Source: Bradyrhizobium sp. 149 (lineage in GTDB: Bacteria > Pseudomonadota > Alphaproteobacteria > Rhizobiales > Xanthobacteraceae). Taken from it: a stretch of 64,000 nucleotides of DNA. Below are positions 37,198 through 64,000 of the stretch, one piece after another. Position 1 is the first letter of the stretch, and every line of letters starts with the position of its first letter. The DNA is taken from positions 310,001 through 374,000 of the forward strand of contig NZ_JADPKK010000019.1 of NCBI RefSeq assembly GCF_023073915.1, read 5' to 3'. Below the pieces are notes generated by a model. It saw only the letters and a list, made by a program, of their open reading frames with translations. It was not told the origin of the DNA and made no database searches. The position numbers and the translations under genes are program-made.

Positions 37198-37288
37198 CGT
37201 AGGGTGGGTTAGCCGTAGGCGTAACCCACCTCTTTCGCTTCCGAGGACACAAACAGTGGTGGATTACGCTGCGCTAATCCACCCTACG
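37198..37288. repeat. Palindromic repeat, cgtagggtgggtta type (family C)
   Basis: The ends cgtagggtgggttagc (37198-37213) and gctaatccaccctacg (37273-37288) pair with one mismatch, and the first half holds a smaller palindrome (gtgggttagc/gcgtaacccac). It lies between the cupin gene and usg. A 13-base match (ggtgggttacgcc) to its inner part is found at 62913-62925 in the avidin gene tail. Confidence 0.8.
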
Positions 37289-61822: not shown

Positions 61823-62212
61823 TCAACCCTTGGCGTCGCAGGCCCAGGCGCGGATCACGCATTCCTTGCCGCCGTATTTGTAGCATTCGCGCGTCGCGGC
61901 ATTGAGCGATGCCGAGATCTTCGGCTTGACGGCATAGCCATAGGCGCCGCACGGATTGGACAGATCGACCGACATCGCGGCGCAGGCGCGCTTCATCGTG
62001 ACGGTCGTGCAATCGCCCTTGCACTGCTTCTGCGCCGCCGTGCGCGCTTCGTGCTCGGCCCCATAGTCGAAGGCCTGGCCATAGGCGCCGCATTTGCCGA
62101 CCGCAAACGCACCGGCGGCGTGCGCATCCGTGATGTGGCGAGCGCCGGCGACGCAGACGGACAGCGCAAAGAAAAACATCGCGCAACGGCGCGCGACGAC
62201 ATTCGAGGCCAT
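61823..62212 (-). CDS. DUF4189 domain secreted protein
   Basis: The 129-residue product has a signal peptide (1-33, ending AHAAG) and two DUF4189-type modules: FAVGKCGAYGQAFDYGAEHEARTAAQKQCKGDC (about 35-67) and NPCGAYGYAVKPKISASLNAATRECYKYGGKEC (about 85-117). Cysteines suggest disulfides in the periplasm. Function unknown. Confidence 0.88.
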   Translation of the reverse strand: MASNVVARRCAMFFFALSVCVAGARHITDAHAAGAFAVGKCGAYGQAFDYGAEHEARTAAQKQCKGDCTTVTMKRACAAMSVDLSNPCGAYGYAVKPKISASLNAATRECYKYGGKECVIRAWACDAKG

Positions 62213-62394: not shown

Positions 62395-63441
62395 ATGCGC
62401 CACACCAATGCAATGCTGTTGGGAATGCTCGCGTCGGCCTGTCTCATCGGGCTTTCGCCCGCGCAGGCGCAGACGGTGAACTGGACCTGGACCAACCAGT
62501 ACGGCTCAATCCTGGCCATCACCGGCTTCAACCAGACCACGGGCGCGATCACGGGGACCTACACCAACAACGCGGCAAACAGCTGCGACGGGGGCAAGCC
62601 GCAGGGGGTGACGGGCTGGCTCGCCTACGGCAACTCGGGCACCGCGATCAGCTTCTCGGTAAACTTCCTCGGTTGCGGTTCGACTACGGTCTGGACCGGA
62701 CAGCTCAACGCCACAACAGGCTTTCAGGGCCTTTGGTATTTGTCCCTCGGCGAAGCGGTCGCATGGAACGGCATCAGCGCGGGCGCCGACACATTCACAT
62801 TCAGCAGCGGCAACAAGGCCCAACTGACGAAGAGCGGCGTCGAGCTGAAAGCCGGAGGCGTCGAGAAGCTTTCGAATACCAAGAAGGAGGCGAGCTTTGC
62901 GGCCACCAAAGTGGTGGGTTACGCCGTGCGGATTGCGCTTCGCGCTGCCGCAAGGGCTACCCCCACGAAATCGTCATCCCCGTCTTGCCGCTTCCAGCGC
63001 CTGCGGCGTGTCGATGTCAAGGAAGGCGCTCTCGCCGTCGACCGGCACTTCGGCAACCGCCTCGGTGTGCTTGGCGATCAGATGACGCGCGCCGACATCG
63101 CCGTCGAGGGTCATCAATTCCCTGAAGAAGCGGCGCGACCACAGCACGGGGTTGCCGCGGCGGCCCTCGCTGACGGGTACGACAATCAGATTGCCGCGGT
63201 CCGGCGCAAAGCCGTCGATGAGCCGGTCGATCAGGCCGGCGTCGATCAGCGGCATGTCGCCGAGGCAGACCACAGCGCCATCGGACGTCTCGGGGACGGC
63301 GGCGATGCCGGCCTTGACCGAGCTTGCGATGCCGCCGGCAAAATCCGGATTTTTGACGAACCGCACATTCAGACCCTGCAGTGCCTGCTCGACCAGTTCG
63401 GTCTGATGGCCGGTGACGACGATCACCTCGGATGCTTTTGA
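62395..63441 (+). CDS. Bradavidin-like biotin-binding protein with lost stop codon
   Basis: The first about 164 residues are an avidin: signal peptide (1-25, ending PAQAQ), then TVNWTWTNQYGSILAITGFN and GWLAYG, TVWTGQ and AVAWNG strands with the Trp and Thr/Ser residues that bind biotin, and a likely disulfide (NSCDGG and LGCGS). The region ends in EKLSNTKK (62863-62886), which in bradavidin is the C-terminal tail that occupies the biotin site. Here no stop follows, and the frame runs 185 codons further through DNA that is antisense to the molybdopterin-domain gene. The ATG follows a good cggaggaaac site. The true end of the protein is uncertain. Confidence 0.85.
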   Translation: MRHTNAMLLGMLASACLIGLSPAQAQTVNWTWTNQYGSILAITGFNQTTGAITGTYTNNAANSCDGGKPQGVTGWLAYGNSGTAISFSVNFLGCGSTTVWTGQLNATTGFQGLWYLSLGEAVAWNGISAGADTFTFSSGNKAQLTKSGVELKAGGVEKLSNTKKEASFAATKVVGYAVRIALRAAARATPTKSSSPSCRFQRLRRVDVKEGALAVDRHFGNRLGVLGDQMTRADIAVEGHQFPEEAARPQHGVAAAALADGYDNQIAAVRRKAVDEPVDQAGVDQRHVAEADHSAIGRLGDGGDAGLDRACDAAGKIRIFDEPHIQTLQCLLDQFGLMAGDDDHLGCF

Positions 63442-64000
63442 AGCAAGCGCCTGCTCCGTCGCGATCCGCACCAGCTTCTTGCCGTCGAGTTCGGCGAGCA
63501 GTTTGTTCGGTCCGCCCATGCGGGTCGAACGGCCCGCCGCAAGCACGATCGCCGCGACCTGGTTGTTGCCCTCGATCTCCGGTTTTGCGCGCGGCTGCGG
63601 ACGCGTCACGATCTCCATCAGCAGGCCGCCGACGCCCATGCCCATCAGCTCGGAACGGGTCACCTTGATGCCCGCGAGGAGCCGCATCAGCACCCAGTCG
63701 AAGCCGTTCTCGACCGGCGAACGCGCGCAGCCAGGCGCGCCCAGCACCGGCACGCGGCCGGCCCGGGCGATCAGCAGCAGATTGCCCGGATCGACCGGCA
63801 TGCCGAAATGTTCGATCTCGCCGCCGATTTCGGTGACGGCCGCCGGAATCACGTCGCGGCGATCCGCGATCGCGGATGCCCCGAACACGATCACGAGCTC
63901 GGCGCCAAGTCCCAGCAATTCCTTGATCGCAGCCGACAGCGCCCGCTCCTCATGCGGGACCCGCCGCTCGGCGATAATGCTGGCACCGGCCGGCGCCAGC
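62974..64000 (-). CDS. Molybdopterin-binding/MobA-like fusion protein (5' end outside window)
   Basis: The reading frame is open to the window edge, so the start is missing. The N-terminal part visible has a MoeA/Mog-like domain (LVIVFGASAIADRRDVIPAA and FGMPVDPGNLLLIARAG). The C-terminal part is a NTP-transferase of the MobA/MocA type: AAIVLAAGRSTRMGGPNKLL and the late LGDMPLIDAGLIDRLID. The fusion probably inserts a nucleotide onto molybdopterin for xanthine-dehydrogenase-type enzymes (MocA role). Its 3' end overlaps the avidin read-through region by about 470 bp antisense. Confidence 0.9.
   Translation of the reverse strand, partial: LAPAGASIIAERRVPHEERALSAAIKELLGLGAELVIVFGASAIADRRDVIPAAVTEIGGEIEHFGMPVDPGNLLLIARAGRVPVLGAPGCARSPVENGFDWVLMRLLAGIKVTRSELMGMGVGGLLMEIVTRPQPRAKPEIEGNNQVAAIVLAAGRSTRMGGPNKLLAELDGKKLVRIATEQALASKASEVIVVTGHQTELVEQALQGLNVRFVKNPDFAGGIASSVKAGIAAVPETSDGAVVCLGDMPLIDAGLIDRLIDGFAPDRGNLIVVPVSEGRRGNPVLWSRRFFRELMTLDGDVGARHLIAKHTEAVAEVPVDGESAFLDIDTPQALEAARRG

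Follow-up and report, generated by a model that had tools for sequence, protein, structure and literature searches.

A one-base stop codon loss in the assembled genome of Bradyrhizobium sp. 149 extends a bradavidin-type gene into the antisense strand of a MobA-like gene

Introduction

Bradavidin (BLR5658) of Bradyrhizobium diazoefficiens (PDB 2Y32 and 4BBO) is the closest described relative of the protein reported here. Residues 131–133 of its C-terminal tail enter the pocket of the neighbouring subunit (PMC3344845). The tail lowers the affinity for biotin, the Kd being approximately 0.3 μM for full-length bradavidin and below 1 nM for the tail-less core, and a Brad-tag placed at the N-terminus of EGFP binds core-bradavidin with a Kd of approximately 3 μM (PMC3344845). 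Avidins that carry a long C-terminal extension, of approximately 150 residues, behind the avidin domain form an ‘extended’ clade found in several species (PMC8033661). The shift of a stop codon is a known evolutionary process, and bacterial cases have been described (PMC4494051 and works cited there).

The window analysed in this study is a 64,000-nucleotide stretch of Bradyrhizobium sp. 149 (assembly GCF_023073915.1, contig NZ_JADPKK010000019.1, positions 310,001 to 374,000, forward strand). One of its genes matches bradavidin across the whole mature protein and runs on past the codon at which its relatives stop. In the assembled sequence this feature is real: a one-base stop loss, followed by a run-on of unremarkable length. 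The window gene is very probably an ordinary bradavidin gene whose stop codon was lost recently by a single base substitution, TAG to GAG. In the prokaryotic stop-codon shifts of Vakhrusheva et al. (2011), as they are cited in PMC4494051, downstream sequence likewise joins the 3′ end of the gene; unlike in the shifts so cited, a long stretch is added in the window, since the frame past the stop lies antisense to a conserved GC-rich gene, and the case is seen in a single genome. The window protein also resembles the ‘extended’ avidins (PMC8033661) in architecture, having an avidin domain with a long C-terminal extension behind it; their extensions define a clade, whereas that of the window is the antisense run-on of one genome and matches no Pfam family.

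Results and Discussion

The plus-strand ORF at 62395–63441 encodes a protein of 348 amino acids. The features of the locus are as follows.

61823–62212, minus strand: DUF4189 gene, conserved, flanking the avidin gene on the side away from the MobA-like gene
62395–62886, plus strand: bradavidin-type avidin precursor of 164 codons, the mature avidin ending in EKLSNTKK
Avidin codons 1–25, plus strand: predicted signal peptide, based on where mature 2Y32 starts in the alignment
62887–62889, plus strand: GAG in place of the TAG of all compared same-locus orthologues, with T-to-G at 62887
62890–63438, plus strand: remainder of the run-on frame (184 codons including GAG), spacer up to 62973 and then antisense to the MobA-like gene
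62913–62961, plus strand: degenerate intergenic palindromic repeat starting with GGTGGGTTACGCC, now within the run-on frame
62974–64000, minus strand: gene for a MobA-like NTP transferase, facing the avidin gene in convergent orientation, with a frame going past the window
63439–63441, plus strand: TGA, at which the frame first meets a stop; antisense to the sole TCA in the listed MobA-like frame

All 138 residues of bradavidin in PDB 2Y32 were aligned to residues 26–164 of the window protein (E value, 3e-74), the terminal EKLSNTKK included. The Pfam family Avidin (PF01382) was matched with an E value of 3.4e-19 and 69.8 bits, above the cut-off of 24. The 13 published pocket residues that were checked (PMC3344845) are all kept, namely Asn9, Tyr11, Ser13, Tyr31, Asn33, Phe66, Ser71, Thr73, Trp75, Trp89, Leu91, Trp99, and Asp107, and the Cys39 and Cys69 pair is kept as well. 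The intrinsic-ligand peptide EKLSNTK is also retained, EKLSNTKK corresponding to codons 157–164. In its pocket residues, its cysteine pair, and its tail, the window protein is thus the same as BLR5658, and the initial annotation, which had described the bradavidin fold and the EKLSNTKK tail as intact, agrees with both the full-length match to 2Y32 and the PF01382 match. Unlike BLR5658, the window gene has GAG for the stop codon and 184 additional codons, it reads GGVEKL instead of GSEKL where the tail begins (one extra residue ahead of the tail, shared with some other relatives), and it carries E41G in mature numbering. The gene is single-copy in its own genome, and its avidin part contains neither an internal stop nor a frameshift.

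To place the stop codon, 266 Bradyrhizobium genomes were searched with the avidin, and a match was obtained in 49. The orthologue set consisted of 16 intact loci (L003–L018) from other Bradyrhizobium species that have the DUF4189 and MobA-like neighbourhood in common. TAG directly follows the tail in 16 of 16, and GCGAGC or a close variant mostly comes next. The window reads AAGAAG GAG GCGAGC around the former stop, one base off the family in the alignment. The decayed avidin copies in genomes G151 (frameshifted) and G213 (shortened) also keep TAG at the same codon. A stop loss, taken as a codon at which orthologues stop and around which both flanks can be aligned, is what is found here, and the comparison points to the T-to-G change at 62887 as its cause. 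The window avidin consequently does not end at the tail ligand, as bradavidin usually does, a feature that is not essential to it. The absence of a stop and a run-on of 185 codons had been noted previously; the count comprises 184 sense codons and the TGA at 63439–63441, and that a stop was indeed lost is borne out by the 16 intact orthologues and the two decayed copies. Conservation of the long form in relatives, which the initial annotation had named as an outcome against its reading, was sought among the same-locus orthologues fetched, and none of them had a read-through long form. Two genomes (G044 and G243) were considered as carriers of long forms and rejected, as their listed frames were counted from stop to stop and TAG ends the gene in each. 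The change looks like an ordinary stop-loss mutation and not like a new kind of gene.

The run-on had been described as antisense to the next gene, and this is true from 62974 onward, the spacer coming before it. From that position the extension is the codon-for-codon reverse complement of the minus-strand MobA-like gene, and therefore only TTA, CTA, or TCA codons in the latter would give stops. The listed MobA-like frame of 315 codons contains no TTA, no CTA, and one TCA, which explains why the antisense frame is open. When the MobA-like gene was recoded synonymously with local codon usage (5000 recodings), 46% remained open for at least as long, so that a run-on of this length can be expected by chance. 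Of the 16 orthologous loci, 8 have this antisense frame open over an equal or greater distance after a functional TAG (the comparison for L011 spans 462 of 468 bases); most of the fetched genomes without the avidin gene likewise have it open that far. In L006 the frame reaches the identical stop position. Hypothetical read-through of the TAG in three close relatives would span 225 (L003), 171 (L006), and 192 codons (L009).

Most of the differences between the window and its relatives across the extension affect the third position of a MobA codon (34 of 39 in the comparison with L003); the extension therefore bears the constraint of MobA, with no sign of one of its own. No Pfam family was matched by the extension. 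The block-mean pLDDT of the AlphaFold prediction was approximately 20–40 in the extension versus 70–91 for most of the avidin barrel, which is weak evidence, since the window alone covers that part of the alignment. A coding extension was rejected on the combined grounds of the missing Pfam match, the substitutions that follow MobA codons, and a length expected by chance.

The dN/dS of the avidin was 0.11–0.23 between the window and its relatives, close to the 0.10–0.19 between L003 and the others. Because the avidin part is still under low dN/dS, the stop loss looks recent on the branch of the window, or is an error. A single residue, E66G, is private to the window avidin. Codon 66 (62590–62592) is GGG (Gly), and Glu is found there in nearly all relatives; it corresponds to mature position 41, which adjoins the Cys39-Asp40 loop bordering the biotin pocket.

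Synteny is kept at the locus: the avidin gene lies between DUF4189 and the MobA-like gene, the latter being approximately 1 kb further away in L016 and L017. In the genomes of L072–L078 and L080, which are approximately 91% identical over the MobA region, these neighbours have no avidin gene between them, and the presence of the gene at the site is therefore patchy. At L060 (G151), an avidin gene at approximately 600–1117 beside DUF4189 has at least two frameshifts, with the gene end and TAG kept; these frameshifts could be decay or an assembly error. At L061 (G213), the last 45 avidin codons (approximately 891–1030) are all that remains at the conserved locus. With several close genomes lacking the gene and two carrying decayed copies, avidin loss is a common fate at this locus. 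It is a tentative possibility, less favoured than a simple recent substitution, that the stop loss is itself one step in the loss of a patchily kept gene, as the absences in L072–L078 and L080, the 45-codon remnant in G213, the frameshifted copy in G151, and the private E66G at a nearly invariant site would suggest. However, an avidin part without internal stop or frameshift and with a dN/dS that is still low does not look like a decaying gene. Such decay is compatible with a recent TAG-to-GAG substitution and not opposed to it. Separately, L065 (G043) carries a distant, degraded avidin copy with the tail EKLSNTRKSPERHQSRVG, in which TGA has seemingly become CGA in comparison with L030 and L058; this is possibly a second independent stop loss.

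It is unlikely that the GAG is a sequencing or assembly error concealing a true TAG at 62887 and a normal 164-residue bradavidin precursor. The difference is a single base in one genome only, and purifying selection is otherwise clear in the avidin part, as would be expected had the stop never changed. In a population study of stop changes, singletons were left out for this very reason, as possible errors (PMC4494051), which also favours an error. On the other hand, the assembly is compact, with 23 contigs, a completeness of 100, and a contamination of 0. In consensus assemblies, erroneous substitutions are seldom seen, whereas true differences are common at 92% identity, which is the value over the MobA region for the nearest genome; no second strain of the same species was found in the genomes scanned.

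If the recent substitution is real, translation would run through the short spacer and the MobA-like antisense to the TGA at 63439. No terminator-like site for intrinsic termination was found on the plus strand from the end of the avidin gene to 63500. The product would be a secreted avidin with an unstructured tail of 184 residues, which would probably be trimmed by proteases or lower the protein yield. Biotin binding by the avidin core would remain possible, and the EKLSNTK ligand could still reach the neighbouring pocket. Published data speak against the view that a long extension inevitably disturbs the tail ligand: the Brad-tag at the N-terminus of EGFP binds, and therefore binding can take place with a chain after the tag. 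In contrast to that construct, the tag in the window protein is attached on both sides. The stop change is most likely either neutral or mildly deleterious. It is very unlikely that a real and fixed stop loss has produced a stable extended bradavidin in which the tail ligand is held on both sides and biotin binding is altered in a natural strain.

It is extremely doubtful that the extension has been recruited by selection as a new C-terminal part by which the biotin pocket is freed or blocked. The known ‘extended’ clade (PMC8033661) and the control of bradavidin affinity by the tail ligand (PMC3344845) would make such a gain of function conceivable, but the long form was found in no other genome, and the extension is an antisense sequence constrained only by MobA, with no Pfam family and no confidently predicted fold.

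As it stands, the locus shows a known gene altered by a known process in one genome, and it leaves the general picture unchanged. If real, it offers a clean and recent natural case of a one-base stop loss, in which the antisense of a GC-rich gene became a long tail on a protein that uses its own C-terminus as a ligand. A possible use is in testing the tolerance of secreted proteins for long unselected tails.

The 13-mer GGTGGGTTACGCC, reported previously at 62913–62925, is present there and is one of three exact copies in the whole genome. It had been proposed that invasion by this repeat removed the stop, and the 13-base match to a Bradyrhizobium intergenic repeat, 23 bases past the altered codon, agrees with that proposal; its probability is nevertheless negligible, since the former stop codon is still present with one base altered between the undisturbed flanks AAGAAG and GCGAGC, and similar repeats lie 3′ of an intact TAG in the same spacer of many relatives (e.g., L004, L011, and L012). 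An insertion at the stop was rejected, as the repeat neither replaces nor interrupts the stop or its flank. The repeat region folded only slightly better than shuffled sequences (z, −1.42). Within the window, the GGTGGGTTACGCC repeat occurs once more, at 37203–37270, where it belongs to a short palindrome and is adjoined by a near copy.
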